From an uncultured Myxococcales bacterium (lineage in GTDB: Bacteria > Myxococcota_A > UBA9042), in NCBI GenBank assembly GCA_937910235.1, contig CALENB010000232.1, positions 1 to 62,115 on the forward strand: a stretch of 62,115 nt of DNA. Reading direction: 5' to 3'. Each line of letters opens with the position of its first letter. The stretch's first letter is position 1. Shown here in pieces: positions 21,722 to 58,809 of the stretch. Below the pieces are notes generated by a model, which saw only the letters and a list, made by a program, of their open reading frames with translations, was not told the origin of the DNA and made no database searches. Made by a program: the position numbers and the translations under genes.

Positions 21722-21779
21722 GGCGTCGTCCGGCTGGCATGCCACGGCGCGATAACGCCGGCATTCTGGGATGTGAGCG

Positions 21780-27777: not shown

Positions 27778-29991
27778 CTATTTTCCGGTGCAGGGCGCGC
27801 CTGCGCAGGGGTCGATGATCTCGCCGGTCGCGAAGAAATGCAGCATCAGCTTGATAAAACGGGGATCTTTGCGCGGTTTGCCGTGGGGATCGCCGAGGTT
27901 GTCGTGCGGCGGGTTGGGCCCTGGCGCGGCCCAGGCGTTGCCGTAATCCCAGCTGACCAGCCCTGAGCCGATGTGCGGGTAGGGCTGCGGCGGGACGTTC
28001 CAGAGCGGCCTGCCGTAGTGCGCCATCAGCTTCACGCCGAGACCGCTGCGGGCGGTGATCTCATTGGTCAGCGGCGCGACCTGCCAGTCACCCTTGGCCT
28101 GCGCGAGGATGACGTGGTGGCTGGGTGTGTTCGCGAAAGGCGCCTCGCTCATGTGGCGGTAGTAGCTGATCGGATCGACCTGATCCCACAGGATTTGACC
28201 GATCTGCAGCATCACCGCGCGGTCCATGACGCCGGTGTACTGGCTCCGCATCAGCAGAAAAAACGGCACAAAGTCGGTGGAGCGGCGCAGCAGCAACGAG
28301 TAGTTCTGCCCGGGCACGCCGAGCACAGCCCGGGTCACCTCCTGCGAGAGCGCCACATACGTCGCGCCGTAGATGCCGCCCTGGCTGTCGCCCGTGTAGT
28401 GCTGCCGCTTCGGATCGATCTTCAGCTTGAGCGCACCCGTGAGGCCGATCTTGGCGCGCGCCGCGGCGTCGAGTTTGCTGTCGATCGCCGCGCTCAGCTC
28501 GGTCATGCGCTCCCGCACGCCGCGCGCCACCGCCAGCTGCTCCAGCATGCCCTGGTGCAGGTGCTCATTGATGATCGCGAAGTGTTTGAAGTCGAACACC
28601 ATCTGGCTGATCGCGCCGATCTCATCGTGGGACATCCCCGTCCAATTCGCCGAGAATCCAAGGCGCTTGTCGTCCAGCAGCAGCTGGCGGGTGTGCCCGG
28701 CGCCGAGCTGGCCCCCCGTTCCCAGCAGACCGTGGCCGTATTGGATGAGGCCGTGCACCTCGCCGCTGATCGCGGAGCGTGGGATCAGCAGCCAGAAGTT
28801 CGCGTCGCGCCAGCCGTCTTGCTTGGGGGTGCCGGTCGTGTCGCGCACTAAGCGGTAGCCGGTGTCGTCGCCGATCTGTACCGGTGTCACGTAGTTCGGT
28901 ACGCGAAACGTGCCCTCGACGCTCAGGGCGATGCGCGGATCTTGCTTGGCCGTAGACGCCATGACCTTCAGCACCGTGAAGACCGGCCCCTTCGGGCCGA
29001 GGATCTGCAGGCCTTCGTCGCGCATGTGCAGGATGTCGCCGTGCAGCGCCTCGTGGCTCGACGTCACCCAACCCCAGGCCAGCTGCGTGCTCTCGCGCTG
29101 CACCCCCGCCGCCTTCAAGGCCGCAAATACGGCCTCAAAGTTGGCCTGCCGCGGCGCGAGCCACGGGTCGGTCACGGTCTTGTCGCGCAGCTGTTTGAAG
29201 GCGGGCGAAGGCAAAAACGCGGCGCCGTCCTTCGTCTTGAGGCCACGAAACGCGATGACGTATCGCGTCGCCTCCCGCGGGATCACCAGCGGTCGCACCA
29301 TCAGCGCGCGCTGCGTCGGCTTGTCGATGTCGACGTCGTCGTCGAGCTCCACAAAATACGGGATGCGCGTGACGCTGCCGTCCTTGGCCACCTCCAGCAG
29401 CACCACGTTGGCGTCCGCCGCCAAACAGCCCGCAGGCGTTGTCTCCGACGGTAGGCCGGTGGTGTCGACGTCCGGAAATGAGGCGATCGCGGCCCAGCCG
29501 ACACCATAGCCATCCATGCGATTCCACGCCGCCGGATCGACCCGCACCCCCGCCGCGTTGGCCGGCATGCCCGCCTGCTGGAGCGCGAGGCGGAAGCCTG
29601 TGGGCGACGCGGTATCGACCTTCAGGAACTTGCTGCTCGGGTAGGGCAGCAGGCAGTGGCCTTCGTCGAGCGGGTCGCAAGCTGGGGTCGGGTCGGCGTT
29701 GGTGTGCCCGTCCAGCGCGGCGCTGTCTCCACTGGCAGCGTCCGGCTGGACGTCGCCTGCGCTCGCATCCGCCAGGGTCGCGGCGTCGGTCACGGTCGCG
29801 GCGTCGGTCACGGTCGTGTCGGACGAGTCACCCGTCTGACCGTCGTCGCTGCACCCCCCGGAGATGAGCCACAGGCCGCACAGCACCGCACCGCCGACGG
29901 CGTATCTGACGCGGAGGCTGAGCGTGCTGCGGGACGCGAGAACACGGTGTGATGTGAGAACACGGTGCGATGTGAGACCACGGATCGGCAT
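27778..29991 (-). CDS. Large alpha/beta-hydrolase-like lipoprotein
   Basis: From the ATG at 29991 (ribosome site gagg) it is 737 aa; the frame is open further upstream, through DNA repeats. The signal ends LISGGC (candidate lipobox), followed by an Asp/Ala/Thr linker. The N-terminal half (about 90-380) has Ig/beta-like character and no family I can name. The C-terminal half has an alpha/beta-hydrolase pattern with LIQYGHGLLG, the nucleophile elbow GDSQGG, and late Asp/His candidates. It probably hydrolyses an ester or amide outside the cell; substrate unknown. Its 3' end is 12 bp from the convergent S74-domain gene. Confidence 0.75.
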   Translation of the reverse strand: MPIRGLTSHRVLTSHRVLASRSTLSLRVRYAVGGAVLCGLWLISGGCSDDGQTGDSSDTTVTDAATVTDAATLADASAGDVQPDAASGDSAALDGHTNADPTPACDPLDEGHCLLPYPSSKFLKVDTASPTGFRLALQQAGMPANAAGVRVDPAAWNRMDGYGVGWAAIASFPDVDTTGLPSETTPAGCLAADANVVLLEVAKDGSVTRIPYFVELDDDVDIDKPTQRALMVRPLVIPREATRYVIAFRGLKTKDGAAFLPSPAFKQLRDKTVTDPWLAPRQANFEAVFAALKAAGVQRESTQLAWGWVTSSHEALHGDILHMRDEGLQILGPKGPVFTVLKVMASTAKQDPRIALSVEGTFRVPNYVTPVQIGDDTGYRLVRDTTGTPKQDGWRDANFWLLIPRSAISGEVHGLIQYGHGLLGTGGQLGAGHTRQLLLDDKRLGFSANWTGMSHDEIGAISQMVFDFKHFAIINEHLHQGMLEQLAVARGVRERMTELSAAIDSKLDAAARAKIGLTGALKLKIDPKRQHYTGDSQGGIYGATYVALSQEVTRAVLGVPGQNYSLLLRRSTDFVPFFLLMRSQYTGVMDRAVMLQIGQILWDQVDPISYYRHMSEAPFANTPSHHVILAQAKGDWQVAPLTNEITARSGLGVKLMAHYGRPLWNVPPQPYPHIGSGLVSWDYGNAWAAPGPNPPHDNLGDPHGKPRKDPRFIKLMLHFFATGEIIDPCAGAPCTGK

Positions 29992-30054
29992 GACAACCTC
30001 CAAGACACGACAACCTTCAGGACACGACAACCTTCAGGACACGACAACCTTCCG
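29938..30054. repeat. Two adjacent tandem arrays (18-bp x3 and 17-bp x3)
   Basis: gagaacacggtgtgatgt and two close copies (29938 to about 29988) encode the LTSHRV repeats at the start of the hydrolase-like lipoprotein. gacacgacaaccttcag is then repeated three times (30004-30054) in the intergenic DNA. Both arrays lie over and just upstream of the start codon at 29991. Confidence 0.9.
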
Positions 30055-30080: not shown

Positions 30081-32333
30081 TCACGGCGCGGCGTCTACAA
30101 ATGGCCGACCGAAATGCTGCGTCACGGTGCAGCCCGCCGCTCGCAAGAGGCCGGTCGGCAGCGTGCCACCGACGCAGATCACGACGTCGTCCGCGCCGAG
30201 CCGCTCGCCGCCGTCGAGCACCACCGAGTCGAGCTCGATGCGCGCCGGGTTTCGCTCCAGGTGCAGCTGGATCCGCCCCTCCGCCGCGGCCTCATCGAGC
30301 AGGGTGCGGTTGCGGGCCTTGGCTCGGTCGAAGTTGGAGCGTCGGTAGACCAGATGCACCAGCGTCGCCCCCGCCTCGGCGCAGGCGAGCGCAGACTCCA
30401 GCGCCGAGTCACCGCCGCCGACCACGACCACACGTCGGCCGGCGTGTTGATCGGGCTCAAGCACGGTGTATGCCACGTGCGATTGATCCTCCCCGAGCAC
30501 ACCCAATCGCCGCGGCGCACCCCGCCGACCGACCGCGATCATCACGCGGCGCGCGGTGAAGCGCAGCTCCTCAAAGCCCGGCATTCCGGGCCGTAAGCCG
30601 ACGGGCACCCCGCTGACCTCAAACCCGTCACGGTCGGTGAGGGGGGTGATGCCGTTGACGCTGACGCCGTGTGCGACGTCCAACCCGGTCTTGGTCTGCA
30701 CCTCCTGCCACAGCGCCACCAGCTCCTCTTTGCGCGCGTCCCAGAGCTTGATTTTACCAAAGCCGCGCAGGTCCATGGGCGCCAGCATCACCAGCTTGCG
30801 GCGCGGGTAGTGGTTCACGGCGCCGCCGAGGTTGGGCTCCTGCTCCAACGTCACCGTGGTGAGGCCGGCCTCCTGGCAAGCGAGCGTCGCGGCGATGCCC
30901 GCCGGTCCCGCACCGATGATGCAGACGTCTGCGATCTTCGGCCCTTGCGGCGCAGGTTTGTCGCGCTTGGCTTGGCGTGCCAGGTGGTCCACGGCTTGAT
31001 TGGCCTGTCGCACCGCGTTGCGGATCAGGCCCATGCCGGTGATCTCACCAATGAGGTAGATGCCGGGCACGTCAGACTCGAAGTAGCGGCTGACATCGGG
31101 GATATCGACGCCGCGCTTGGAGGTGCCAAACACCAAGGTGATCGCGTCGACAGGGCAGTTGCGCGCGCACTCGCCGTGGCCGACGCAGTGGCTGGGTTCG
31201 ATGAGCCGCGAGCGACCGTCGAGCAGATCGAGGATGTCGCCCTCGGGGCAGGCCGCGACACAGGCGCCGCTGCCCATGCAGATGTTGGGATCGATGTAGG
31301 GGTGCAGGGTGGCGGGGGGCTCCGGTGGTGGTCCGTCACCGACGAGAACGCTGACTTTGCGGCGTTTTCGCACCATGCGCAGCCGAATCTCGAGGCCCAC
31401 GGCGATCGCTGGCAAGGCCAGGGCGGCGGCCAGCCACAGCGGCCAGGAAGGCGGCACCTGCCAGCCGTAGCCCTGCTCAAACGCGCTGGCGATGTGCAGG
31501 TAGGCCGACCACCCCATGATGAGGGCCGCGACCAGATGCACCGGTCGCCACGACCGCAAGATGCGGGCGGCGACGCCGGCGAAGGCATAGGCGGTGCCGA
31601 ACCGCACCGTCTCGACCGCGGCGCCGCGCACGGTTTGCCGTTTGGCGCTGTCAAAGGCATGGCGTTGGTTGGCGCGCCTGAGCGCCAGCTGCACCCGCGC
31701 CGCAGCCACCACACGCCGCAGCGGCTCCAGCGGCAGCCGCACCAGGGCGCGGGCGAGGTTGCGCTCGGGCGGACGACCCAACCCGGCGAGGCTCCGCAGC
31801 TGGCCGACCAGCGGATCGTCACGGCCGACCACCGCAGCCACTTGCGCCAACGACTGCTCGGCGCGCCCGGCCAAGCCCTCCGGCTCCTCTTCGCCCGTGG
31901 CGGTGTGCGGCACCAGCGCGTAGAGGTAGCGACCGATGATGCCGGTGGCGATGAGCACCACGACGCTCAGGGCTGAGAGCCGCGCCGCCTCGCTGGTCAT
32001 CCGGAACACCGCGTGGAGCGCGATGAGCCCGCCGCCTAGCAGGCCGAAAAATACGTGCGCGCTCATCCAATGGCGCAGGCTGCCGAGTCGGTGCAACACC
32101 CGCATTCGGCGGCGTGGCAGGTAGAGCATGTTGAACAGAAACAACGCGACGGCGACGGTGCCCAGCAGCTTGCCCATGTGGCCAGCCGAGCGGAAGTTGT
32201 CGTATTGCGGGTGGTCGACCAGCGCCTCGTGCGGCGCCTCATAGAAGCCACCGGACTGCTCATAGATCCAGAGCACGGTCGCGGCCGCCAGCAGGATGAG
32301 CAGCAGGTCTAACAAGTTCCGGCGCTGGTTCAT
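30081..32333 (-). CDS. Inner-membrane fusion: haem-b-like membrane domain, ferredoxin domain and thioredoxin-reductase-like flavoprotein
   Basis: This 750-aa, three-part protein is probably the electron entry or exit point of the operon. Residues 1-320 hold about six membrane helices with well-placed His (88, 93, 107, 266, 280), suggesting haem b. Residues 345-400 are a two-cluster ferredoxin, but each motif lacks its second Cys: C352-x2-S355-x2-C358-x3-C362-P and C383-x2-H386-x2-C389-x3-C393-P. From 468 a flavoprotein domain has GAGPAG (474-479) for FAD and VVVVGGGDSA for NAD(P)H. No redox CxxC is obvious. The parts imply transfer between NAD(P)H and the periplasmic cytochromes. It is the last gene of the operon, 59 bp after the barrel gene. 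Confidence 0.85.
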   Translation of the reverse strand: MNQRRNLLDLLLILLAAATVLWIYEQSGGFYEAPHEALVDHPQYDNFRSAGHMGKLLGTVAVALFLFNMLYLPRRRMRVLHRLGSLRHWMSAHVFFGLLGGGLIALHAVFRMTSEAARLSALSVVVLIATGIIGRYLYALVPHTATGEEEPEGLAGRAEQSLAQVAAVVGRDDPLVGQLRSLAGLGRPPERNLARALVRLPLEPLRRVVAAARVQLALRRANQRHAFDSAKRQTVRGAAVETVRFGTAYAFAGVAARILRSWRPVHLVAALIMGWSAYLHIASAFEQGYGWQVPPSWPLWLAAALALPAIAVGLEIRLRMVRKRRKVSVLVGDGPPPEPPATLHPYIDPNICMGSGACVAACPEGDILDLLDGRSRLIEPSHCVGHGECARNCPVDAITLVFGTSKRGVDIPDVSRYFESDVPGIYLIGEITGMGLIRNAVRQANQAVDHLARQAKRDKPAPQGPKIADVCIIGAGPAGIAATLACQEAGLTTVTLEQEPNLGGAVNHYPRRKLVMLAPMDLRGFGKIKLWDARKEELVALWQEVQTKTGLDVAHGVSVNGITPLTDRDGFEVSGVPVGLRPGMPGFEELRFTARRVMIAVGRRGAPRRLGVLGEDQSHVAYTVLEPDQHAGRRVVVVGGGDSALESALACAEAGATLVHLVYRRSNFDRAKARNRTLLDEAAAEGRIQLHLERNPARIELDSVVLDGGERLGADDVVICVGGTLPTGLLRAAGCTVTQHFGRPFVDAAP

Positions 32334-32392: not shown

Positions 32393-34234
32393 CTAGAGTC
32401 GGCGGCGCACGAGCAGCGTCACGTCGACCCAGTCTAGCTTGTAACTGCCCGGGGTGGGATCGGCCGCGAGCAGGGTGTCATTGCCGACTTGCAGGGCGAC
32501 GAGCCAAGGCCCGCTCAGCCACTCCAGGCTCGCCGAAGACCGCAGCCGCAGCGCGCCGTTGTGGATGGGCAGGATCTGATCGTAGCGCACACCGGCGCGA
32601 CCTTGCAGGCGCCAGACGCGATTGAGCGCGTAGCCCGTGCCCAGCCAGCCGCCCACGCCGCGCGTGGGACCCGCGGCGCGGCCATCGTCGGTGAAGGCGA
32701 GGCCGGTCTCGGCGTGGACCGCGGCGTGCGGCGACCAGCGCTCGCCCCGCAGCCCCGCGCGCAGCGCCACGGCCAGGCGCAGGCCATCGTAAGGCTCAGG
32801 GCTCGTCAGCCACGCCGCGTTGAGGCTCGGGCGCAGCCACCAGCCACGGGAGGCGGCGCGGTCGGCTTCCAGCGAGAGCAGGTGGCTGCGGCCATCGACC
32901 CAGACGTCCCACGGCAGCGTGCGGGCGATCAGGCGATCGGCGGTTGGCCGGTGGTAGCTGTACCGCGTCCGCAGCAGCCACCCGCCCGCGCCGCGGCGGG
33001 TCGCCGCCGACAACCAGAGGCGCGCGAGCGCCGCGCTCGGCGTGGTGAGGTGCGCCAGCGCGGTGCCGCTCAGGTCGGCGCTGCCCACGGCCACGGTCGC
33101 CGCGGCGTCGATCTCGCCGCGCTGGTCGTGCTCCAGGCGCAGCCACGCGTCGAGTCGATGTGGATCGAGGTGGCCCTCGACGAGCTGGCCAGCGTAGCCC
33201 AGCGACCAGCGGGTCTGCAGGTTGCCGCGCCGGTGCGCCGCTCGCCAGCCGACGCCGAAGCGGCCGGCGTCGAGCTGCAGCGCCAGACTCACTGGATCTG
33301 CCGCGGTGCCGCCCCAGGCGCTCACTGTGCCCCAGGGGCCGAGGTTGACGTGGGCGCTGGCGCCGTCGATGAGGCGGCCGCTGGCGCCTGTGGCCATCAC
33401 CAGGCGACCCGCGCCGAGCTCGCCCCAGCCCGTGCGCCAGCCGAGCCGCGCGCGGCGGACGGCGACGGCGCTCCGCGCCCGCGCGCCACCTTGGCTGCGG
33501 CCGGGCTCTGTGGAGATGCCGTCGTAGCGCAGGCTCAGATCATGCGACCAGCTCAACGGCGTGCCGCCGACGCTGCGCACGGCCAGGCGGCTGCGCAGGG
33601 TGGCGAATGTCCAGGTTTTACGGCCTTTGAGGTCGATGAGGCCGATCCCGACGAAGGCCAGATCGCCCTTCACGTTGGTCGCCGCGCCCGCCAGCTGCCG
33701 GCCGCGCTTGGAGACCACCAAGCTGCGCGGGTCGTCGCGCAGTCGCGCCCACGCCGCCTCCGTGAGCGAGGTCGGCGCCCGGCCGATGCGAGCTCTGCCC
33801 ACCCGCCAAGGCGCCGCAGGGGCGCTGCTGCTGACGCCGCCGGCCTTGCCCGCCGCGCCCGGCGCCGACTGGGTCGCCAGCGCCGCGCCCGCGTCACCGC
33901 GCCGTGGCAGGGGACCGTCGACGAGGCGCGCCCGCGCGCGTCGCCCCACCACCTCAAGGATCTTGACGCGCCAAGCCCGTCGGCTCCGCCCCGCGGGCTT
34001 TCCCCGCAGCTCTTGCCCGACCCGCACGCGCTCGGTCGGTTCGAGCCGCAGATACACCTCTGCCGCCTCGCCATGCGTCGTGCCGCGCACCTCTGCCGCG
34101 TCGGCGGTCGCTGCGACGCCACTGAGCACCGCCACAAGCCAGCCGCCCAGCAGCAGCGTGCCAGCCCGAAGCAGGCGATCGCGCGCAGCCGACCCAGCGG
34201 GACGCGGCGGCGACGGTTGGCGGCCGAGTGCCAT
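32393..34234 (-). CDS. Outer-membrane beta-barrel protein, possible porin of a porin-cytochrome conduit
   Basis: The 613-aa protein has a signal peptide (hydrophobic about 24-45, ending ATADAAEV). After a mixed 150-residue region come many alternating amphipathic strands rich in Trp, Tyr, Arg and Gly (for example LRTRYSYHRPTAD, WRLQGRAGVRYDQ). This is typical of an outer-membrane barrel. It has no CXXCH. ATG 34234 has AAGGAG 8 bp upstream; a GTG at 34243 overlapping the previous stop is the alternative. Lying between two multihaem cytochrome genes and a membrane oxidoreductase, it could be the sheath of a trans-outer-membrane electron conduit. The family is not recognised by sequence. Confidence 0.72.
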   Translation of the reverse strand: MALGRQPSPPRPAGSAARDRLLRAGTLLLGGWLVAVLSGVAATADAAEVRGTTHGEAAEVYLRLEPTERVRVGQELRGKPAGRSRRAWRVKILEVVGRRARARLVDGPLPRRGDAGAALATQSAPGAAGKAGGVSSSAPAAPWRVGRARIGRAPTSLTEAAWARLRDDPRSLVVSKRGRQLAGAATNVKGDLAFVGIGLIDLKGRKTWTFATLRSRLAVRSVGGTPLSWSHDLSLRYDGISTEPGRSQGGARARSAVAVRRARLGWRTGWGELGAGRLVMATGASGRLIDGASAHVNLGPWGTVSAWGGTAADPVSLALQLDAGRFGVGWRAAHRRGNLQTRWSLGYAGQLVEGHLDPHRLDAWLRLEHDQRGEIDAAATVAVGSADLSGTALAHLTTPSAALARLWLSAATRRGAGGWLLRTRYSYHRPTADRLIARTLPWDVWVDGRSHLLSLEADRAASRGWWLRPSLNAAWLTSPEPYDGLRLAVALRAGLRGERWSPHAAVHAETGLAFTDDGRAAGPTRGVGGWLGTGYALNRVWRLQGRAGVRYDQILPIHNGALRLRSSASLEWLSGPWLVALQVGNDTLLAADPTPGSYKLDWVDVTLLVRRRL

Positions 34235-34239
34235 CAATC

Positions 34240-35157
34240 TCACTCCTTACCGTTTGGGTGACAGGAGAGGCAGGCGCTCGCCTTGTAGACGTAGCCGCTC
34301 ACCTCGCCGAGGTGTTTGTTGTCCATCTGATTTTTGGGATGACAACCGCTCGACATGCACGAGAACACCTTGAAATCATCAGGGTTCGTGTGACACGTCG
34401 CGCACGCGATGTTGGTGTGTTTGCCCGACGTGATGGGAAAGGCGTGGTCGGCCATGCCCGCTGGCTGCCAGCCCGCCGGCGTGTGGCAGCTCTGGCAGGT
34501 CTTGGGGTAGCTGCCGGCCTGATGATCCGGGCTTTTCGCGGCGTTGTAGTCGGGGAGGTGGCAGCCGTCGCAGTCGCGCGGCGGCTTGACGATCCGGTTC
34601 GGCGCCGTGCTGTGGCACCCAGCACAGGTCGCCTGCTGATGTTTGCCGACCAGCGGCCAGGTCTTGTGGTCAAACTTCGCAGGCTTCCAGGCCGCCGTCG
34701 TGTGGCAATCCTGACAAGTGTTCGGATACTGGTTCGCGCTGTGATTGGGCGCCGTCGTCGCGGCGTAGTCGGGCATGTGACAGCCGTCACACGTACGCGG
34801 CGGCTTGTTGACGCGGTCGGGCGCGGCCTTGTGGCACTGCGCGCACGTCGCCTCGATGTGTTTACCCGTCAGCGGCCAGGTCTGGTGATCCCACTTCGCC
34901 GGATGCCAGCTCACCTTGGTGTGGCAAGTTTCGCACGCGGTCGACAGCTTGGCGCCGACGTGATCAGGCGATTTTGCGACGTTATAGTCCGGCTTGTGGC
35001 ACCCGACACACGTCACCGTCTCCGTCTCGCCGACATGCACAGCGGGATCGGACGTCGCCAACCACTCCTGGCAGCCGCCCAGCAGCAGCACGGTGACGAT
35101 TGGCGTGCCGACGATCAACCGCACCGTGTTCGTGTTGTGCCGGAGCGTACGTCTCAT
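34240..35157 (-). CDS. Lipoprotein multihaem cytochrome c, about 11 haems
   Basis: The 305-aa protein has a signal ending LLLGGC (lipobox, Cys29), so it is lipid-anchored. It has ten CXXCH motifs (first CVGCH, last CLSCH) plus one CX4CH (CMSSGCH, about 267-273). A repeated block of about 70 aa (CDGCH-xPDY...CxxCHTxAxWxPAxxDHxxWP) shows internal duplication. The many extra His residues can be second axial ligands, as in cytochrome c3/c7 folds. Its ATG overlaps the stop of the 36-haem gene by 4 bp (ATGA). Expect a periplasm- or surface-facing electron carrier. Confidence 0.9.
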   Translation of the reverse strand: MRRTLRHNTNTVRLIVGTPIVTVLLLGGCQEWLATSDPAVHVGETETVTCVGCHKPDYNVAKSPDHVGAKLSTACETCHTKVSWHPAKWDHQTWPLTGKHIEATCAQCHKAAPDRVNKPPRTCDGCHMPDYAATTAPNHSANQYPNTCQDCHTTAAWKPAKFDHKTWPLVGKHQQATCAGCHSTAPNRIVKPPRDCDGCHLPDYNAAKSPDHQAGSYPKTCQSCHTPAGWQPAGMADHAFPITSGKHTNIACATCHTNPDDFKVFSCMSSGCHPKNQMDNKHLGEVSGYVYKASACLSCHPNGKE

Positions 35158-38100
35158 TTGTCGCCCTTCGGGTGGCAGCTCATGCACGCGCCGTTGTCCC
35201 ACACGTAGCCGCCCACCTCGCCTGCGTGTTTGCTGTCCATCTTGGCCTTGCTGTGCTCGCCGTCGTGGCAATGCACGCAGTCGAACTTGCCTTTGCCCAC
35301 ACCCGCGGGGTGGCAGCTGGTGCAGCTGCTGCGATAGCGGCTGTGGTCGCCGTTGCTGATCGGAAACGCCTTGTCGTGCCAAGTCGACTTCAACGCAGAC
35401 CAGGCCGTGGGTGTGTGGCAGCGCTCGCACGTGGTGGTCAGGCCCAGCGTGCGGTGGTCTGGATGGGTCTTGCCGGCGGTGACCAAGCCGCCATGGCACG
35501 ACGCGCAGCTGCGGCTCAGGCCGGCGTACGTGTCCTTGCTGTGGCACTTGCCACACTGGGTCGCGATGGTGGCGTGGGAGCCCAAAAGTGGCCAGAACGC
35601 GGCGTGGTCGAAGCGGGCCGGCGCCCAGGCAAACGTGGAGTGGCATTGGTTGCAGCCCATGCGCAGGGGGCGATGGTCAAACGAGGTGATGGCGAGCGCG
35701 GTCGTCTTGTGGCAGGCGTCGCAGGTGCTCGGCGTGCCGCGGAACTGATCGCGGGCCTGCGTGCGATGGCACGACGCGCAAGCGACGACCGCGTGCACCC
35801 CGGAGAGCGGGAAGCGGCCAACGGCGTGTGGCGTGAACTGGCGTGGACGCTGCCAGCTGCGTGAGGTGTGGCAGCTCTCGCACTGGCTGCCTTGCTCGCC
35901 GCGGTGGGTGTCGGTGTGGCAGGACAGGCAGGCGCGTGGCACCCGCGTCGACCGCGCTGTCGAGGTCTGCTGCTTGTGGCAGCCGACGCACGGCGCGGTG
36001 GCGTGGGCGCCCGTCAACGGCACGCCGGTGCGGTCGTGGTCGAACGCCACCCGTTTCGGGATCACCTGCCAACCTTCGGGGACATGGCAGAGGTTGCACG
36101 ACCAGCTCGATCCTGCGCCTGAGGTCTTCGCCGTCGCCGCCGGCTTTTCTCCTGTCGTCGGCGGCTTTTTCCCCGTCGCCGCCGGCTTTTCCTTTGTATT
36201 TTGGCCCTCGCGGCCGGCGTTCGTCGCGGCCACCCCGCGTAGGCGCTCGTGTGGATTGCTGTGGCAGCGGCCGCACGCCAGCGCGCCCAAACGGTAGTGG
36301 ATCAGGCCGCGGGTCTTGGCGTCGGTCTCGGTGTCGGTCTTGGCGCCGGTCTTGGCGTTGGTCTTGGTGACGGCTCCGGCGTCGATCCTGGCGCCAGGGG
36401 CGTCGCCACCCGGCCCGGCGACCTTGGTGTGGCAGCGCGCGCAGTCGACGGTCCCGTGTTTGCCGCGGAGCGGAAATCGGGTGTTGTCGTGGGCGAACTT
36501 CTCAATCACGAAGTCCTTGACGACCTGATGGCAGTCTTCGCAGGTGCGTTTGGGACCATCGCTCAGGAACTGCCCCGCGTGCACATCGCTGTGGCAGCTC
36601 GCGCAGGCCGTCGCGACGCCAGCGAAACGCACCGGCGCCCCCGCCGACGGGCGTTGGTGGCAGCCGGCACAGGCGGTCTTGGCGTGGGGTCCGGTGAGCT
36701 TGAACGTTGTCTTGTCGTGATCGAAGCGCTCGGCGGGTCGAAAGGCGCGTTCGGTGTGGCAGGCGGTGCACGTCAGCGGCGGCTTGCGGCCATCGAACTG
36801 GCCGGCGTGGGCGTCTTTGTGGCAGTCGACGCAGGTCTGCGGGGTGCCCACTAACCGCGCGACTTGTCCGGGCGCGCGGGCGTTTACCTTGCCTCGTGAA
36901 CGCGTCTTGGGCGTCGGACTTGGCGTGTGGCAGCCCTGGCACGGCACGACCCGATGGGCGCCGGTGAGCGCGACCCGAGCGCCCTCGTGCTCGGTGATGC
37001 TGAAGTTGGCGGGCGCGAAGCCGCCTTCGCTGTGGCAGGTCTGGCAGGCGTCGGCGGTGCTTTTTGTCGGCTTTGTAGACTTGGGGATCACGGACTTGTC
37101 GGTCGCCACGGTCCTGAACGTGCCGACGTGCACGTCACCGTGGCAGTCGCCGCAGGTGTCGTGGGGGATCTGTGTGTATTGTCTCTTGTACGATTTGGCA
37201 GGCGCGTGGCAGCGCTCGCAGCGCACAGCGCGGTGCCGACCGCGCAGGGCGAAGCTGGTGCGATTGTGGTCAAACCCCCGCTGCGAACGCTTGGCGTCCC
37301 AGCCAGCGGTCGTGTGGCAGTCCTGACAGCGGTCGCCGAACTGGCCCTTGTGCACGTCCTTGTGGCAGCTGACGCACGTGCCGCGCAGCCCCTCGAACGC
37401 CTGCAGACGCGCCCGCGCGGCGCCCGCTGTCATCGACGTATTGGCCACCGCGCGGCGCCGCGGCGTGTGGCAGGTCGCGCAGGCGACGACCGCGTGCTTA
37501 TTGGTCAGCTTGAAGGGCAGCAGCGTATGCAGGCGCAGCCCGGAGTCCTTACGGGTGCGCCGCCAGGAGCGCTCGGTGTGACACGTCTCGCAGGCCTCGC
37601 CGCGGCTGTGATCCGGCGTCGGATCGGCGTGGCAGCTCACGCAGGACGCGAACGACAGCCCACGAAAGTGCAGCGCCGACGCCCCGCGCTTGGCAGGCGT
37701 CCCTTGCGCAGATCGTGGGGCGCTGGCGTTTGACGTGTGGCACTTGCCGCACTGCACCTCGCGGTGTTTGCCGCGGAGCTGAAAGCGCGCGCGATCGTGA
37801 GAAAACCGGGGCGCTGGCGCGAAGCGCTGCTGCGAATGGCAGTTGGCGCAGTCCGGGCCGAGGGTCGGTTTGTGGGTGTCGGCGTGGCAGTTCACACACT
37901 TGCTGCCCAGCCCCATCCAGCGCTGTGGCGTGGTGTGACAGCCCTTGCAGGCCAGCTTGGTGTGGCGACCCTGCAGCTTCCAGCCGGTGAGGCCGTGATC
38001 GAACACGCGCGGCGCCCGCCATCGCACCATCCGAAAGCCTCGGCCTTGATGATCGCGGTGGCACTTGGCGCACGCTTTTCCGGCGTCCTGGGCCATCTTC

Positions 38101-38357
38101 CAATGGTAGCGCGAGGTTTTTGCGGTCTTGTGGCACTCGAGGCAGCGGTCGTCGCTCACGCCTTTGCCGGCGACGTGACAGGTCTCGCAGCGGTTGTCCC
38201 ACTTCTTGTGCGAGGTCGCGAGCGGCCCGGGCGAGGTCGACTGGCCAAGCGCGATCGCCGACCAGCCACAGGTGACGCCCAGCACGCCGATCAACGCAGC
38301 GGCCGCGCCGACACGCGCGGCCGGCCCTGTCGGCATCGTCAACCACCTGCGCGTCAC
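35154..38357 (-). CDS. Giant multihaem cytochrome c with 36 CXXCH motifs
   Basis: The 1067-aa exported protein contains 36 CXXCH haem-binding motifs by direct count, about one per 30 residues. They are spread over almost the whole chain (first CETCH, last CMSCH). An N-terminal hydrophobic signal (about 16-37) ends near IALGQS. Many units have the form FDHxxTxFxLxGxHxxxxCxxCH, giving distal His ligands as in cytochrome c3-like folds. A Lys/Thr/Ala-rich linker (KPAATGKKPPTTGEKP) splits it at about two-thirds. The GTG start at 38357 is preceded by GAGGAGG; an ATG 7 codons later is possible. First gene of the operon. Likely a periplasmic or trans-envelope haem wire. Confidence 0.93.
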   Translation of the reverse strand: MTRRWLTMPTGPAARVGAAAALIGVLGVTCGWSAIALGQSTSPGPLATSHKKWDNRCETCHVAGKGVSDDRCLECHKTAKTSRYHWKMAQDAGKACAKCHRDHQGRGFRMVRWRAPRVFDHGLTGWKLQGRHTKLACKGCHTTPQRWMGLGSKCVNCHADTHKPTLGPDCANCHSQQRFAPAPRFSHDRARFQLRGKHREVQCGKCHTSNASAPRSAQGTPAKRGASALHFRGLSFASCVSCHADPTPDHSRGEACETCHTERSWRRTRKDSGLRLHTLLPFKLTNKHAVVACATCHTPRRRAVANTSMTAGAARARLQAFEGLRGTCVSCHKDVHKGQFGDRCQDCHTTAGWDAKRSQRGFDHNRTSFALRGRHRAVRCERCHAPAKSYKRQYTQIPHDTCGDCHGDVHVGTFRTVATDKSVIPKSTKPTKSTADACQTCHSEGGFAPANFSITEHEGARVALTGAHRVVPCQGCHTPSPTPKTRSRGKVNARAPGQVARLVGTPQTCVDCHKDAHAGQFDGRKPPLTCTACHTERAFRPAERFDHDKTTFKLTGPHAKTACAGCHQRPSAGAPVRFAGVATACASCHSDVHAGQFLSDGPKRTCEDCHQVVKDFVIEKFAHDNTRFPLRGKHGTVDCARCHTKVAGPGGDAPGARIDAGAVTKTNAKTGAKTDTETDAKTRGLIHYRLGALACGRCHSNPHERLRGVAATNAGREGQNTKEKPAATGKKPPTTGEKPAATAKTSGAGSSWSCNLCHVPEGWQVIPKRVAFDHDRTGVPLTGAHATAPCVGCHKQQTSTARSTRVPRACLSCHTDTHRGEQGSQCESCHTSRSWQRPRQFTPHAVGRFPLSGVHAVVACASCHRTQARDQFRGTPSTCDACHKTTALAITSFDHRPLRMGCNQCHSTFAWAPARFDHAAFWPLLGSHATIATQCGKCHSKDTYAGLSRSCASCHGGLVTAGKTHPDHRTLGLTTTCERCHTPTAWSALKSTWHDKAFPISNGDHSRYRSSCTSCHPAGVGKGKFDCVHCHDGEHSKAKMDSKHAGEVGGYVWDNGACMSCHPKGDK

Positions 38358-38855
38358 ACTGCCTCCTCAAAGCCCGGCCGCCATGCTAGCGAAGGTCCCC
38401 ACCGGTGACCATTGCATCGGACCACGGGTGTCCATTGGAGGCCATGGACGGACGTTCAGATCAAAGTGACGACCGACGACAGCAAGCGCGCCGCACTGGC
38501 GGTGTCGGCGCCGCTGGTGCTGCCAGCGCTGCCAGCCCAAGGGCCCAGCGAGTGACCCGACTTGCGCCGTGTTCCGCATCATCGCACATCTTCACAGACC
38601 CGAACAGACTTTCCACATTCTATGTAAACACGCGTAGCTATTGCGTACGTGATCGAGCCCGCGGCGCATCCAGCCGTGCGTCTGGCGGTCGCCGCGCGGG
38701 ATCGCGTGGTGATGACGTGCGGACGGGCGACGTAGCGTCGCGCGGTACCGGTAGGGTGACGATGCGCACCGTAGACGGACGTCATGTCAGTGAAGCGGCT
38801 GCAGTCCCTTGCTCACCTCGCCGAGCCCAGTTGGCTGACGAAGGAGTTCTGAGTC
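38358..38855. other. Intergenic region between divergent cytochrome operon and giant lipoprotein gene
   Basis: These 498 bp hold no convincing gene. An AT-richer island (about 38575-38645) may house promoters for one or both directions. AAGGAG sits upstream of the ATG at 38856. One half-site ATCAA near 38460 lacks a matching partner, so I do not call an FNR box. No repeats or RNA genes seen. Confidence 0.5.
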
Positions 38856-41800
38856 ATGAACACGATGCTGTCGCCCCGCTGCTTGTTGCCCCGTTCGCTT
38901 GTGCGCTTGATCTTGCTCAGCGTGTGTGTCGTGTCGACGGCGTGCGGCGGTGACGACGCGGTGGTCAACGGGCCGATCACGGCCGGACAGAAAGACGGCG
39001 GCGCCGCTGACGGGAAGATCGAGTCAGACGCAGCGGCGGATATCACCACGAAGGACACGGGCGGATCGGCGGACGCGGTGGCCCAGGATTCGGTTGATAG
39101 CGACGAGGCTGGCGTTGTCGACGGCGGCGCCCCCGACGTCACCTCGCCGGACGGCGGCTCCCCCGACGTCACCTCGCCGGACGGCGGCGCCCCCGACGTC
39201 ACCTCGCCGGACGGCGGCTCGCCTGACGGCGGCTCCCCCGACGTCACCTCGCCGGACGGCGGCTCCCCCGACGGCGGCTCCCCCGACGTTACCTCGCCTG
39301 ACGGCGGCTCGCCTGACGGCGGCTCGCCTGACGGCGGCTCGCCCGACGGCGGCACCACCTGTCAGAGCGCGGCGGACTGCGACGACAGCGATGTGTGCAC
39401 CGACGACGCCTGCGACGCGGCGACGGGCGCCTGCAGCCACGCCGCGATTCCGAACTGCCCAGCGACCACGACCTGCACCAAAGCGGCCGATTGCAGCACC
39501 GACGTTGTGTGTGCGATCGCGGCCTGCGTCTCCAACAAGTGCCAGACCTTCGCGGCTCCCGACGGTGTGAAGTGCGACGATGGCAGCAAGTGTAGCGTTG
39601 GCGGCGCCTGCGCGGCCGGCGTCTGCGGCGGCGGCACGCCTGTGGCCTGCGACGACGGCAACCCCTGCACCGATGACACCTGCAAGGCCGGTTTGGGCTG
39701 CGTGGGTGTGCCCGGTGGCAAAGACTGTAGCGACGACAACCTCTGCACCGAGGGCGACAGCTGCGCGGGCGGCACATGCGTGGCTGGCGCGACGCAGAAG
39801 GCTTGTGACGACAACAACCCGTGCACCGATGACAGCTGCGATCCAAAGACGGGCTGCCAGCACGCCGCCAACTCGGCCGCGTGTGATGACGGTAGCGCCT
39901 GCACCACCGGCGATACGTGCACCGGCGGCGTGTGCAAAGCGACCAAGCCAGCGCCGTGTGATGACAACAACCCCTGCACCACCGAGACGTGTGACAGCGG
40001 CGGCGGCTGCAAAAGCGCGAACAATACGGCGCCGTGTGATGACGGTGACCCCTGCACGAGCCCGGATGCGTGTGACGCTGGCAGCTGCAAGGGCGCCGGC
40101 GCCAAGGCGTGCGACGACGGCGACCCCTGCACGACCGACAGCTGTGACCCGAAGACCGGCTGCGTGACCGCGCAGAACACGGCTGCGTGCGACGATGGCA
40201 ACACCTGCACCACCAAGGACACCTGCGCCGGTGGCAAGTGCGCTGGCACGGCCGTGTCGTGCGATGATGGCAACCCTTGTACGATCGACAGCTGCAACCC
40301 GACCACCGGCTGCGCGACGGCCCCGGCGACGGGTGGGTGCTCGGACGGCAACGCGTGTACCGGTAAGGACGCTTGCGCAAAGGGTGCGTGTGTCGGCGGC
40401 GCCGCGGTGAACTGCGACGACGGCAACCCGTGCACGACCGACAGCTGCGATCCGAAGACCGGCTGCAAGTCGGCGGCGACGGACGGCAGCTGTGATGACG
40501 GCGACGCGTGCACGACGAAAGACTTGTGCAGCGGCGGGACCTGCAAGGGCGGCGCCACGGTCACCTGCGACGATGCGAACCCGTGCACCGATGACAGCTG
40601 CGACGCCAAGACGGGCTGCGTGACGAAGAACAACTCCTCTACGTGTGATGATGGCAGCGTGTGCACGACCGTGGACGCCTGCAAAGACGGCATCTGCGTC
40701 GCGGGTAAGCCAGCGCCCTGTGATGACGGCAACCCCTGCACCACCGAGACCTGCGACGCCAAGGGTGGCTGCACCAGCGCGGCGAACACCTTGCCTTGTA
40801 ACGACGGCAACGCCTGCACGCTGAAGGACGCCTGCAAGTCGGGCGCCTGCGCGGGCGGCGCGGCGCCGCAGTGCGACGACGGCAACCCCTGCACAGCGGA
40901 CGCCTGCGACCCGAAGACCGGCTGCACCAACGTTGGCACCAGCAAGCCTTGCGACGATGGCAACGCCTGCACGGCCGGCGAGACCTGCGCCGCTGGCAGC
41001 TGTGGTGGCGGTAAGGCCGTGCCATGTGATGACGCCAACCCCTGCACGACCGACGCGTGTGACCCCAAGGGCGGCTGCAGCAACACCAACAACACCGCGC
41101 CCTGCGACGACGGCAGCGCTTGCACGACGGACGATCTCTGCAAGGCGGGCGTCTGCACGGCCGGAAAACCGGCGCCCTGCGACGATAAGAACCCCTGCAC
41201 GACGGAGACCTGCGACGCGGCGGGTGGCTGCAAAAGCGCGGCGAATGACCTGCCCTGCAACGACGGCGACGTCTGCACGACGAAGGATGTGTGCGCCGGT
41301 GGCGCGTGCAAGGGCGGCGCCGCCGTGACGTGTGACGACGGCAACCCGTGCACGACGGACAGCTGCGATGCGAAGGCTGGCTGCAAGGTCGTGGCGAACA
41401 CGGCGGTCTGCAACGACGGCGACGCCTGTACGACGAAGGATGTGTGCGCCGGTGGCGCCTGTATGGGCGGCGCCAAGGTGGCCTGTGATGACGGCAAGAT
41501 CTGTACAGACGACGCCTGCGACCCCAAGAGCGGCTGCACCGCGACCAACAACATCGCGTCCTGCAGCGACGGCAGCGGCTGCACCGAGAATGACGCGTGC
41601 AGCGGTGGCGTCTGCAAGGGCGGCGCCGCGCTGAAGTGCGACGATGGCAAGCCCTGCACGACGGATACGTGCGACGCCAAGGCCGGCTGCGTGCACACGC
41701 CCAACAGCGGCGCGTGTGACGACGGCAACCCCTGCAGCACGGGCGACACCTGCGCCAATGGCGGCTGCGCGGGCGCGGGCGTGACTGACTGCGACGACAA

Positions 41801-44800
41801 GAACGCCTGCACGACGGACAGCTGCAGCAGCACCGCGGGCTGCGTGCACACCGCGAAGAGCGGCGCGTGTGATGACGGCAACCTCTGCACCACTGGCGAG
41901 ATCTGCACGGCCGGCAAGTGCGGCGGCGGCCAGCCGAAGAGCTGCGATGACGGCAACCCCTGCACAACCGACAGCTGCAGCGCCACAGGCGCGGGCGGCA
42001 CCACCGGGTGTGTGAACGCGAACAACACGGCGCCCTGCGATGACGGCAGCGTCTGCACCACCGGCGATGTCTGCAAGGGCGGCGCCTGCACGGCCGGAAA
42101 ACCGGCCCCCTGCGATGACAACAACCCCTGCACGACCGAGATTTGCAGCGCGAGCGGCGGCTGCAAGAGCGAGCCGAACACGGCGAAATGCAGCGACAAC
42201 AACGCCTGCACCGTCGGCGACGCCTGCGCCGCTGGCAAGTGTGTGGCTGGCAAAACGCAGAGCTGCGACGACGGCAAGCCGTGCACGCTCGACACCTGCG
42301 ATCCGGTGAAGGGGTGTGTCAACACCAACACCACCGCGAAGTGTGATGACGGCGACGTCTGCACGGAAGCGGACGCCTGCGCCGGTGGCGTCTGCAAGGG
42401 CGGCAGCCCGAAGGTGTGCGACGATCAGAACCCCTGCACCGCGGCCTCTTGCGACCCCAAGACCGGCTGCGCCTTCAAGGTTGTGGCGGGGCAGTCCTGT
42501 GATGACGGCGACCTGTGCACGGCCGGTACCGTCTGCCTGCTGCCCAGTGGCTGTGGCCAGGGCAAGGCGACCAATTGTGACGACGGCGAGGCCTGCACCA
42601 CGGACAGCTGCGACCCGAAGAAGGGCTGCGTACACACAGCAGTGAGTGGTGTCTGCAGCGACGGTGACGCCTGCACGGTTGGCGAGGCCTGCAGCGGCGG
42701 CACATGCGCGGGCGGCAACGCGCGGAACTGCGACGACGGCAAGGTCTGCACGGCGGACAGCTGCAACAAGACGTCGGGCTGCGTCAACGGCGCAAATACG
42801 GCGTCCTGCGACGACGGCGACGCCTGCACCCAGAAGGATGTGTGCAGCGGCGGCCTCTGCAAAGGCGGCAGCGCCACGGTCTGCGACGACGGCAACCTGT
42901 GCACGACCGACAGCTGCGACGCCAAGTCCGGCTGCAAGGTCGCCAACAACACGGCGAGCTGCTTCGACAGCAAGCTCTGCGCCGCGGGGACCTGCTCAGG
43001 CGGCGCCTGCAAGGTCAGCGGCGCGGGCTGCGACGACAAGAACCCCTGCACCGTCGACACCTGCGTCGCGGGCAAGGGATGTCAGTCCGTTGCCGCCGCC
43101 GACGGCCTGAAATGCGGCGACGGGGACGCCTGCACGGCGGCCTCGACCTGCAAGGCTGGCAAGTGCACCGTCGGTCCGGCGAAGAGCTGCGACGACAGCA
43201 ACGCCTGCACCAACGACAGCTGTGACGCCAAGACCGGCTGCGTGAACGCCAACAACACAGCGCCGTGCGACGACGGGCTGCTGTGCACCGCGAAGGACGC
43301 GTGCGCGGGTGGCAAGTGCGCCGGCGCCCAGACGGACTGCAACGACGGCAACGTCTGCACCGATGACAGCTGCGACGCCAAGACCGGCTGCGTCCACGCC
43401 GCGAACACGGCGAAGTGCGACGACGGCAGCACGTGCACCAGCGACGAGACGTGCACCGCGGGCAAGTGCGTGTCAGCGACGAACAAGTGCGACGACGGCA
43501 ACCCCTGCACGGTGGATGGCTGTGCGTCGAATGGCGACTGCACGTTTGTCATCACCAGCGGGCCTTGCGACGACGGCAACCCGTGCACGACCAGCTCGAC
43601 CTGCTTCGGCGCGACCTGCAAAAACGGCACCGCGGTGAAGTGTGATGACGCAGACCCCTGCACGATCGATGCCTGCGACAGCAAGACCGGCAAATGCGTG
43701 ACCACACCGGTCGCCAACAGCGCCCAGGTCGCGTGTGACGACGGCGACGCCTGCACCAGCGGCAGCGTGTGTTTCGACGCGAGCTGCGTGGCGAAGGTGG
43801 GCAGCGGTAAGGTGTGTGACGACGGCAACAAGTGCACCGACGACAAGTGTGACCCGAAGACCGGCAAGTGCGGCACCACCAACAACGTGGCGCCTTGCGA
43901 CTCGGGTGACGCGTGCACCTACGGCGACACCTGCTTCAACGGCGTCTGCAAGACCTCAACGACGAAGCTCTGCGACGACGGCAACGACTGCACAGTGGAC
44001 GCGTGTGACAGCAAGACCGGCAAGTGCAGCACGAAGTTGGTGGCGGATCAGAGCCCTTGTTCGGATGGCTTGGCGTGCACGACGGGCGACGCCTGCAAAG
44101 CTGGTCAGTGCGTGGCCGGCGCGTTTAGCTGCGCGCTCTTTGAGGACGGCTTTGAGTGCGGCGACGCGGGCGCGGGCTGGACGCTCGACAAACCGGCCAA
44201 CAAGCAGGTGATCTGGGCAGTGGACGCCTCGCCGGCGCTGCCAGATCAGGCGAACTACGCCTGCACGCTCAACTTCAACAATGGGACGAACTACTGCGAC
44301 GCGCAGGGCAACGGCTGCCAGACCCCCTCGGGCACAGCGCGCTCGCCGACCATCGACGGCACCAAGGCGTTTGGCCAGACGCGCCTGAAGTTCGACTCGT
44401 TTGTGCAGGTGGACGGCGGCTTCTCTGACCGACCGCGGGTGCTGGTCCGCCGGGCCGACACGAACGCTGTGCTGCACAGCTTCTACCTGAGCAAGGCGAA
44501 CAACAACATGAACGTCTGGCGACCGCAGAACATCCAGATCAACAACGTGGTCGGCGTGAAGTTCTACCTGGAGTTCTTTCTGCAGACGCCGAGTGGCCAG
44601 GGCAACAACGACGGCAAGGGCTGGGCGATCGACAACATCGTGATCGACCAGCAGCCCGTCGCGGAGAACTGCACCGACGGCATCGACAACGATGGCAATG
44701 GCAAGGTCGACTGCGACGATCCGGTCTGCATCGCGAAGGGCGGCTGCGTCGAGCTCTGCGGCAATGGCGTCGATGACGACTTCAACGACAAGATCGACTG

Positions 44801-45428
44801 CGACGACGACGCCTGCAAGGGCACGCTGGACTGCGTCGAGCCGACGCTGAAGTGGGATTTTGACTGTGGTGACGCGGGCTGGACGTATACCAAGGGCGCC
44901 AACAACGTCTCGTGGAACATCGACGCCACCCCCGTCACCGTGAAGCCGTACACCGGTGGCTGTACCTTGAACTACAACAACGGCGTCAATTACTGTGGCA
45001 CGTCGACCTGTAGCGGACAGTTCAACTGGTCGGCCGGCCTCGCGACGCTGGACCAGGTCATCGACGCCACGGGGTTCAAGGCGCTGAAGGCGACCTATTG
45101 GGCCTACGTGGACGTGTCGAGCTACGGCAGCCTGAACACCGACAACGGCTACTTGCAGGTCTCGACGAGCGACTTTGCTGGTTGCTGCGGCGCGACGAAC
45201 CAATGCACCGCGGCCGAGCCGAACGAGTGCAACAAGGGTGGTACGGAGACCTTCACCACGCCAGAGCCTTCGGGCGGCGCGAAGAAGTGGGCGCAGGTCT
45301 CGGTTGATTTGAAGAGTTATGTCGGGAAGAAGTTCAAGCTGCGCTTCCGCTTTAACAGCGCGGGCAGCGGCTCCAACAACTTCCCGGGCGTGTTTGTGGA
45401 CGATCTGCGTCTGTACGGCACAAAGTAA
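38856..45428 (+). CDS. Giant CTDC-repeat lipoprotein (2190 aa)
   Basis: The signal ends VVSTAC (lipobox, Cys30). Low-complexity linkers follow (about 50-165), including PDVTSPDGGSPDGG repeats. Residues about 170-1760 comprise about 60 Cys-rich units of about 25 aa by count. They alternate between CDDGNPCTTDSCDPKTGC and CDDGSACTTGDxCxxGxC forms, like Dictyostelium CTDC repeats. Asp density suggests Ca2+ binding. The C-terminus has two related beta-rich domains (ECGDAGAGWTL... and DCGDAGWTYTK...). Between them are CTDGIDNDGNGKVDC-type Asp-rich linkers. Probably a long, disulfide-stiffened surface fibre for adhesion. A related gene follows. Confidence 0.88.
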   Translation: MNTMLSPRCLLPRSLVRLILLSVCVVSTACGGDDAVVNGPITAGQKDGGAADGKIESDAAADITTKDTGGSADAVAQDSVDSDEAGVVDGGAPDVTSPDGGSPDVTSPDGGAPDVTSPDGGSPDGGSPDVTSPDGGSPDGGSPDVTSPDGGSPDGGSPDGGSPDGGTTCQSAADCDDSDVCTDDACDAATGACSHAAIPNCPATTTCTKAADCSTDVVCAIAACVSNKCQTFAAPDGVKCDDGSKCSVGGACAAGVCGGGTPVACDDGNPCTDDTCKAGLGCVGVPGGKDCSDDNLCTEGDSCAGGTCVAGATQKACDDNNPCTDDSCDPKTGCQHAANSAACDDGSACTTGDTCTGGVCKATKPAPCDDNNPCTTETCDSGGGCKSANNTAPCDDGDPCTSPDACDAGSCKGAGAKACDDGDPCTTDSCDPKTGCVTAQNTAACDDGNTCTTKDTCAGGKCAGTAVSCDDGNPCTIDSCNPTTGCATAPATGGCSDGNACTGKDACAKGACVGGAAVNCDDGNPCTTDSCDPKTGCKSAATDGSCDDGDACTTKDLCSGGTCKGGATVTCDDANPCTDDSCDAKTGCVTKNNSSTCDDGSVCTTVDACKDGICVAGKPAPCDDGNPCTTETCDAKGGCTSAANTLPCNDGNACTLKDACKSGACAGGAAPQCDDGNPCTADACDPKTGCTNVGTSKPCDDGNACTAGETCAAGSCGGGKAVPCDDANPCTTDACDPKGGCSNTNNTAPCDDGSACTTDDLCKAGVCTAGKPAPCDDKNPCTTETCDAAGGCKSAANDLPCNDGDVCTTKDVCAGGACKGGAAVTCDDGNPCTTDSCDAKAGCKVVANTAVCNDGDACTTKDVCAGGACMGGAKVACDDGKICTDDACDPKSGCTATNNIASCSDGSGCTENDACSGGVCKGGAALKCDDGKPCTTDTCDAKAGCVHTPNSGACDDGNPCSTGDTCANGGCAGAGVTDCDDKNACTTDSCSSTAGCVHTAKSGACDDGNLCTTGEICTAGKCGGGQPKSCDDGNPCTTDSCSATGAGGTTGCVNANNTAPCDDGSVCTTGDVCKGGACTAGKPAPCDDNNPCTTEICSASGGCKSEPNTAKCSDNNACTVGDACAAGKCVAGKTQSCDDGKPCTLDTCDPVKGCVNTNTTAKCDDGDVCTEADACAGGVCKGGSPKVCDDQNPCTAASCDPKTGCAFKVVAGQSCDDGDLCTAGTVCLLPSGCGQGKATNCDDGEACTTDSCDPKKGCVHTAVSGVCSDGDACTVGEACSGGTCAGGNARNCDDGKVCTADSCNKTSGCVNGANTASCDDGDACTQKDVCSGGLCKGGSATVCDDGNLCTTDSCDAKSGCKVANNTASCFDSKLCAAGTCSGGACKVSGAGCDDKNPCTVDTCVAGKGCQSVAAADGLKCGDGDACTAASTCKAGKCTVGPAKSCDDSNACTNDSCDAKTGCVNANNTAPCDDGLLCTAKDACAGGKCAGAQTDCNDGNVCTDDSCDAKTGCVHAANTAKCDDGSTCTSDETCTAGKCVSATNKCDDGNPCTVDGCASNGDCTFVITSGPCDDGNPCTTSSTCFGATCKNGTAVKCDDADPCTIDACDSKTGKCVTTPVANSAQVACDDGDACTSGSVCFDASCVAKVGSGKVCDDGNKCTDDKCDPKTGKCGTTNNVAPCDSGDACTYGDTCFNGVCKTSTTKLCDDGNDCTVDACDSKTGKCSTKLVADQSPCSDGLACTTGDACKAGQCVAGAFSCALFEDGFECGDAGAGWTLDKPANKQVIWAVDASPALPDQANYACTLNFNNGTNYCDAQGNGCQTPSGTARSPTIDGTKAFGQTRLKFDSFVQVDGGFSDRPRVLVRRADTNAVLHSFYLSKANNNMNVWRPQNIQINNVVGVKFYLEFFLQTPSGQGNNDGKGWAIDNIVIDQQPVAENCTDGIDNDGNGKVDCDDPVCIAKGGCVELCGNGVDDDFNDKIDCDDDACKGTLDCVEPTLKWDFDCGDAGWTYTKGANNVSWNIDATPVTVKPYTGGCTLNYNNGVNYCGTSTCSGQFNWSAGLATLDQVIDATGFKALKATYWAYVDVSSYGSLNTDNGYLQVSTSDFAGCCGATNQCTAAEPNECNKGGTETFTTPEPSGGAKKWAQVSVDLKSYVGKKFKLRFRFNSAGSGSNNFPGVFVDDLRLYGTK
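39118..39357 (+). repeat. Tandem repeats encoding PDVTSPDGGSPDGG linker
   Basis: Units built from ggcggctcccccgacgtc and gcctgacggcggctc repeat many times inside the 2190-aa lipoprotein gene. They encode an Asp/Gly/Pro linker between the anchor and the first Cys-rich unit. Copy number is likely to vary between strains. Confidence 0.88.
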
Positions 45429-45512
45429 CGGGGTAGGTGAGTTCGGCGCGGCCTCGTTGGGGGGAGCGCGCTACGAGATGTCGCCGTGAGCGGCCTAGGT
45501 GGGGAGAAAGTC

Positions 45513-52859: not shown

Positions 52860-52933
52860 ACTCGGATACCCGCGGGGGGCTTTTCTATGACCGGATTTCG
52901 CGCCTTGTGGCGCCACTGTGTCCAGGAGGACTG

Positions 52934-58803: not shown

Positions 58804-58809
58804 CTCCAG

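Follow-up and report, generated by a model that had tools for sequence, protein, structure and literature searches.

The 36-haem gene and its operon

A stretch of 62,115 nucleotides from an uncultured Myxococcales bacterium (contig CALENB010000232.1; the whole stretch is called the window) carries, on its minus strand, a gene for a cytochrome with 36 CXXCH haem-binding motifs, followed by genes for a smaller cytochrome, an outer-membrane barrel and a membrane reductase. The four genes are predicted to encode an electron conduit. Their features are:

38362 to 38368, minus strand: strong Shine-Dalgarno sequence GAGGAGG of the 36-haem gene, 5' of the GTG
35154 to 38357, minus strand: 36-haem cytochrome of 12 triheme modules; GTG start, 1067 residues, 36 CXXCH
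38241 to 38357, minus strand: Sec-type signal peptide, about residues 1 to 39 of the 36-haem protein, recognised by eye; holds the sole Cys outside the motifs
36249 to 38240, minus strand: 23-haem part, residues 40 to 703; its own gene in several relatives; ends in a spare His, H703
36099 to 36248, minus strand: seam, a low-complexity K/T/P linker, residues 704 to 753, within module 8
35157 to 36098, minus strand: 13-haem part, residues 754 to 1067; in relatives its own gene with its own signal peptide
34240 to 35157, minus strand: 11-haem lipoprotein cytochrome; 10 CXXCH plus 1 CX4CH, lipobox LGGC, ATGA overlap with the 36-haem gene
32393 to 34243, minus strand: outer-membrane beta-barrel of 616 residues; 22 predicted strands (residues 191 to 615) and a small N-terminal beta domain
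31329 to 32333, minus strand: inner-membrane domain of hydrophobic helices, like the inner-membrane protein of porin-cytochrome c complex 3 (PCC3); WX3HX13H at residues 89 and 262, TGIIG at 130
30084 to 31328, minus strand: cytosolic half of the same 750-residue protein; two iron-sulphur (Fe-S) motifs (CMGSGACVAACP, CVGHGECARNCP) and an oxidoreductase binding flavin adenine dinucleotide (FAD) and NAD(P)

The initial annotation had described a single cytochrome with 36 motifs in 1067 residues, and exactly this open reading frame was recovered, uninterrupted. No variant motifs occurred in it (CX3CH, 0; CX4CH, 0), 72 of its 73 cysteines lay inside CXXCH, and shuffling its residues yielded a mean of 0.35 CXXCH and a maximum of 3 (2000 shuffles). 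The motifs, said to be evenly spaced, were so only roughly: they are grouped in triads, and at the 23/13 junction two of the gaps are long (56 and 59 residues). The haem number lies above the 21 to 27 of the periplasmic PCC3 subunits of Gallionellaceae (PMC10734462), and in that respect its placement at the high end stood. As a record, 36 was ruled out by the published giant multihaem cytochromes (MHCs) of Desulfuromonas acetexigens, with 86 haems (PMC12133095), and of activated-sludge Bacteroidota, with more than 100 (PMC11495043). These likewise hold very many haems per chain, more than the window protein, and are likened to it by haem count alone. The surprise is not in the haem count.

The open reading frame was taken as one gene in one frame because its GC content at the third codon position was uniform over the whole gene (0.81 to 0.88) and because fused orthologues from other genomes aligned with it along its entire length, each of the 36 motifs falling in register. 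A frame error dividing two separate genes had been named as grounds for withdrawing the claim; separate genes were found in close relatives and not in the window. The converse error, an assembly or frame artefact merging two genes, draws on the same-genus genomes G001 and G003, in which the 23- and 13-haem proteins are separate genes. With codon bias continuous across the gene, and with fusion also present in the operon's other copy (contig C249 of the host genome), in the genomes G007 and G009 and in the more distant G029, such an artefact was judged extremely improbable.

Triheme modules and the 23/13 seam

The 36 motifs form 12 triads with the module order HHccHc (c, CXXCH), the first module being slightly different. 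Thirty-five non-motif His were invariant across the four fused orthologues, and H250 was off by one residue in one sequence; the 36 conserved non-motif His are candidate distal ligands, one per haem. Units resembling FDHxxxxFxLxGxH, as originally noticed, were found ahead of most triads. Mean pairwise identity among the 12 modules was 33%, and the mature chain holds one haem per 28.6 residues. The calculated mass is 111.4 kDa for the apoprotein and about 133.6 kDa with its 36 haems. Pfam Cytochrome_C7 matched in 7 stretches (E 2.7e-40) and Cytochrom_c3_2 also matched. The nearest solved sequence in a profile search of PDB was 3OV0, the Geobacter nanowire cytochrome GSU1996 (weak, E 4.3e-6); phmmer with the single protein against PDB gave no match. 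Duplication of a c3/c7-like module, as first proposed, thus agrees with the 12 units, their identity and the Cytochrome_C7 match, but the protein is not simply a c3/c7 chain, because its ligand order is HHccHc and that of the 3OV0 sequence is HHc(M)cc. The module is thus related to the c7 nanowire modules and laid out differently from their order, HHc(H/M)cc.

Geobacter periplasmic nanowire cytochromes carry 12 (GSU1996 and GSU0592) or 27 haems (GSU2210; PMC10138318). The window protein shares with GSU1996 a single chain of triheme modules and the weak profile match, and differs in its conserved ligand order, which implies all-His ligation; the barrel, lipoprotein and reductase of its operon further set it apart from all three Geobacter cytochromes. 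Its score for the MtrA/DmsE decahaem family fell below the cut-off (NCBIfam TIGR03508, 64.2 bits; cut-off 192.2).

Within the window's family and class, the fused form was found in G007, G009, G029 and the C249 copy, and a split form with 23 + 13 motifs in G003, G006, G010, G013 and G019. Two further split cases were imperfect (G001 with a truncated N-terminal part, G016 with a frame break). The haem total was 36 in every complete case, fused or split, and the cut of the split forms fell inside module 8, at the site of the window's linker. New here is that the 36-haem gene is the fusion form of what same-genus relatives hold as 23 + 13, cut inside a module. In the tree, the window and C249 copies were sisters (99/94), nested among split members of the same genus. 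A single origin of the fused form was set aside: the most parsimonious reading needs 5 state changes, of which no more than one is forced by well-supported branches. Fusion or fission, in either direction, has thus probably recurred, which is not proven.

The seam bears on how the two chains might join. Split 23-haem chains have 24 conserved distal-His candidates for 23 haems, the last in a CHxNPH tail, and in split 13-haem chains, once mature, no His stands ahead of the first haem; haem 24 would thus be completed in trans, provided that every haem is bis-His. One haem is ligated between subunits in OmcS filaments (PMC6584659). The proposal is qualified by an extra conserved His of the 13-haem part in the window's family, H1035, which balances the count at 13 His for 13 haems; H1035 lies at the far end of the chain relative to haem 24. 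Nor is trans ligation forced in every group, because in Bacteroidota the cut falls one His earlier, so that the His starts the second chain and stays with its haem. Bacteroidota totals were 23 + 64 and 23 + 73 (loci L062 and L063) and, in Emticicia, 23 + 40, all divisible by three. It is a tentative and rather doubtful proposal that the single chain provides an unbroken 36-haem path from the NADPH end at the inner membrane through the periplasm into the barrel, and that the two chains of relatives share a haem site, with haem 24 ligated in trans as in OmcS. Because the split lies within a module, it could be used to test directly if separate haem chains join by a shared haem.

One locus in another genome (L049, positions 3 to 3989; G050) is a single open frame with 47 CXXCH, apparently the 36-haem and lipoprotein-type cytochromes together; it is possibly an assembly frameshift, because the matches switch frame near 2680.

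Operon partners, distribution and probable assignment to PCC3

The 36-haem, 11-haem and barrel genes overlap in series, and the 750-residue membrane reductase follows close behind. The 11-haem cytochrome is a paralogue of the 13-haem part; it has a lipobox and is a candidate extracellular MHC, localisations in the system being read from signal sequences. The barrel was modelled by AlphaFold with a pLDDT (predicted local confidence) of 76 overall and mostly 80 to 96 within the barrel, and a fold search with VIA-align matched known barrels (Z up to 19.6); MtrB was absent from the list of matches, which does not exclude likeness to MtrB. The inner-membrane domain has six hydrophobic segments ahead of the Fe-S domain, and the FAD/NAD(P) half has no CxxC disulphide. 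The second Fe-S motif is CxGHGxCxxxCP, with His in place of the second Cys in 33 of the 34 homologues having both motifs, and the first motif has Cys or Ser at that position; an unusual cluster ligation at the second motif is possible.

The host genome is a fragmented assembly (593 contigs). A second, diverged operon copy lies on its contig C249 (locus L035, positions 2 to 9527; about 62 to 83% identity to the window operon), with the fused cytochrome cut by the contig start, the 11-haem cytochrome, the barrel, the reductase and a 750-residue lipoprotein. The counterpart of this lipoprotein-like protein in the window (27778 to 30030, 3' of the reductase; 76% identity between copies) had no Pfam or NCBIfam match, and no counterparts of the genes that lie further 3' in the window were found next to the C249 copy. 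The host genome held no strong reductase homologue beyond the two operon copies.

Operon order and gene overlaps recurred in relatives. Cytochrome match and reductase occurred in the same 11 of 22 family genomes, and the other 11 had neither as a strong match; in G005 the cytochrome match was the lipoprotein-type gene, and its contig ends before any 36-haem gene. Among GTDB species genomes, a scan yielded 104 relatives; 80 of these were kept. Their public records were mostly of uncultured Myxococcales or Deltaproteobacteria, and also bore the names of Bdellovibrionales, Bacteroidota, Nitrospinota, Alpha-, Beta- and Gammaproteobacteria and others. Of the 80 loci, 55 had a protein with two WX3HX13H no more than 3 kb from the cytochrome and 52 (several phyla) had a reductase homologue no more than 6 kb away; 40 had both neighbours. 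A frequent gene order in proteobacterial loci was reductase (divergent), membrane protein, 21- or 24-haem cytochrome, large MHC and putative barrel. The His/haem string was identical to that of the window protein in 15 homologues with 21 haems and 13 with 24 (7 or 8 modules), with 21 His for 21 haems and 24 His for 24 haems in exactly the window order. Plasmid pEMTOL02 of the cultured Emticicia oligotrophica DSM 17448 (L148, NC_018749.1, 3604 to 15402; EMTOL_RS21090 to EMTOL_RS21110) carries a co-linear series of CcsA, membrane protein (E 7.6e-17 to the window's inner-membrane protein), reductase, 23-haem cytochrome, 40-haem cytochrome and a hypothetical protein of barrel size, all from membrane protein to barrel-sized protein being separate genes.

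PCC3 was introduced by He et al. 2017 as a hypothetical conduit whose inner-membrane protein has two WX3HX13H, and was proposed in Fe(II) oxidisers (PMC5566968). Its periplasmic subunits in Gallionellaceae have 21, 24 or 27 haems and are thought long enough to span the periplasm (PMC10734462). The window system was filed as PCC3-type because the cluster encodes an outer-membrane barrel (22 predicted strands), because the inner-membrane protein has two WX3HX13H, with TGIIG for SGXXG and six segments for five helices, and because the ordered His/CXXCH string of the periplasmic MHC is that of the 21- and 24-haem homologues, with a larger haem number. On these signatures it would be a new variant of a PCC3-type conduit, with a barrel, a large periplasmic MHC, a second MHC and the double-WX3HX13H protein in common with PCC3, and with the His/haem string and dense haem packing in common with the 21- and 24-haem homologues of PCC3-like loci.

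The differences from PCC3 are a periplasmic chain of 36 rather than 21 to 27 haems, equal to a 23-haem plus a 13-haem protein; a small lipoprotein MHC (11 haems); a Myxococcota-type host; and a membrane protein with an extra hydrophobic segment and TGIIG, fused to an Fe-S/FAD/NAD(P) reductase. This fusion of a PCC3-like membrane protein to a reductase would be new, as would the recurrence of the reductase close to the cytochrome in several phyla. The main-text passages on PCC3 that were consulted make no mention of a reductase as a component, which may nevertheless be recorded elsewhere in those papers, and a literature search for PCC3 with Myxococcota gave no match. As a Rosetta stone, the fusion gives PCC3 a concrete biochemical end to assay, and the system extends PCC3-like systems to Myxococcota-type bacteria. 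MtrCAB, MtoAB and PioAB share the logic of a periplasmic MHC, a barrel and an outer-surface MHC, and their membrane partner is unlike that of the window. The earlier view of a long haem chain held as to module duplication, and the protein was further placed as one part of a four-gene conduit in which 23- and 13-haem proteins are joined.

Proposed electron flow and surrounding genes

The 36-haem protein probably serves as the wire through the periplasm in a porin-cytochrome conduit of PCC3 type, and the most likely role of this conduit is to carry electrons between NAD(P)H and an acceptor outside the cell, the direction and the acceptor being presumed. Electrons would pass from NAD(P)H to the FAD and two Fe-S centres of the membrane reductase, across the inner membrane by two putative b haems of the membrane protein, through the periplasm along the 36 c haems to the barrel and surface lipoprotein, and from there to the acceptor, for example a mineral, a humic substance or another cell. 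Of the 36 haems, the N-terminal 23 would span the periplasm and the C-terminal 13 would reach into the barrel, in the role of MtrA; several relatives carry the two sets on two proteins. The 23-haem part was assigned to the periplasm because of its similar size to the 21- to 27-haem subunits thought to span it (PMC10734462).

Several points weigh against the wire of a PCC3-type conduit. The AlphaFold model of the 36-haem protein (alignment of the 4 fused orthologues) was unusable (pLDDT 30; predicted template-modelling score, pTM, 0.20), so that haem-haem distances fit for a wire, and the placing of the 23-haem part in the periplasm and the 13-haem part in the barrel, are proposed from sequence. 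No phmmer match to the barrel was obtained in the PCC3-like loci checked outside Myxococcota-type genomes, which were proteobacterial and Bacteroidota loci, Emticicia included. The link to PCC3 is drawn from shared signatures and homologous proteobacterial loci, not from a named PCC3 reference protein (e.g., Slit_0869). In Sideroxydans lithotrophicus ES-1, expression of both PCC3 clusters fell on Fe(II) (PMC8788666). PCC3 conduits, although present in many proteobacteria, have no proven function or electron partner in passages of the PCC3 literature.

The conduit could instead run inward, which was considered unlikely: it would oxidise Fe(II), Mn(II) or other donors outside the cell and pass the electrons to the quinone pool, to denitrification or to the reduction of NAD(P)+. 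Reduction of NAD(P)+ from Fe(II) is uphill, and the host genome has no RuBisCO, which rules out RuBisCO-based autotrophy. The first proposal of PCC3 in Fe(II) oxidisers (PMC5566968) and the presence of norCB, norQD and nirK on the same contig speak for uptake; the ES-1 response speaks against it, as do FNR/DNR-like boxes that precede norC and nirK, no such box having been found in the gap that separates the 36-haem gene from the gene upstream of it. Three points favour outward flow: NAD(P)H oxidation is downhill, the genome is without RuBisCO, and Fe(II) does not induce PCC3 in ES-1 (PMC8788666). The conduit may also work in both directions. A periplasmic electron store in place of a through-wire is less probable still: a capacitor role has been proposed for GSU1996-type cytochromes (PMC10138318) and the nearest solved relative is of that type (3OV0), but the tight operon linkage of the window cytochrome to barrel, surface lipoprotein and membrane reductase exceeds the needs of a store.

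Boxes with one mismatch are:

18568 to 18581: FNR/DNR-like box 5' of norC
52846 to 52859: FNR/DNR-like box 5' of nirK
59610 to 59623: FNR/DNR-like box between the Crp/Fnr gene and 59773

With up to 2 mismatches, the window held 13 such matches (4.7 expected); no sign of co-regulation of the cytochrome operon with denitrification was found, as no box was seen ahead of the operon. A promoter and terminator scan gave no match. The denitrification genes (18683 to 23573 and 52907 to 59556) comprise norC, norB, norQ, norD, a copper nitrite reductase (nirK) with a C-terminal cytochrome c domain, Sco1-like, NnrS and a Crp/Fnr regulator. Divergent from the cytochrome operon are two huge Cys-rich lipoprotein-like proteins of CDDGNPCTTDSCD repeats (38856 to 45428, 2190 residues; 45486 to 51197, 1903 residues), the former matching Pfam Dicty_CTDC in 25 stretches; repeats similar to CDDGNPCTTDSCD also occurred near the cytochrome operon in several relatives. 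A row of dnaA, dnaN, recF, murA and proB-like genes, recognised by eye at 228 to 7239, marks a probable replication-origin region.

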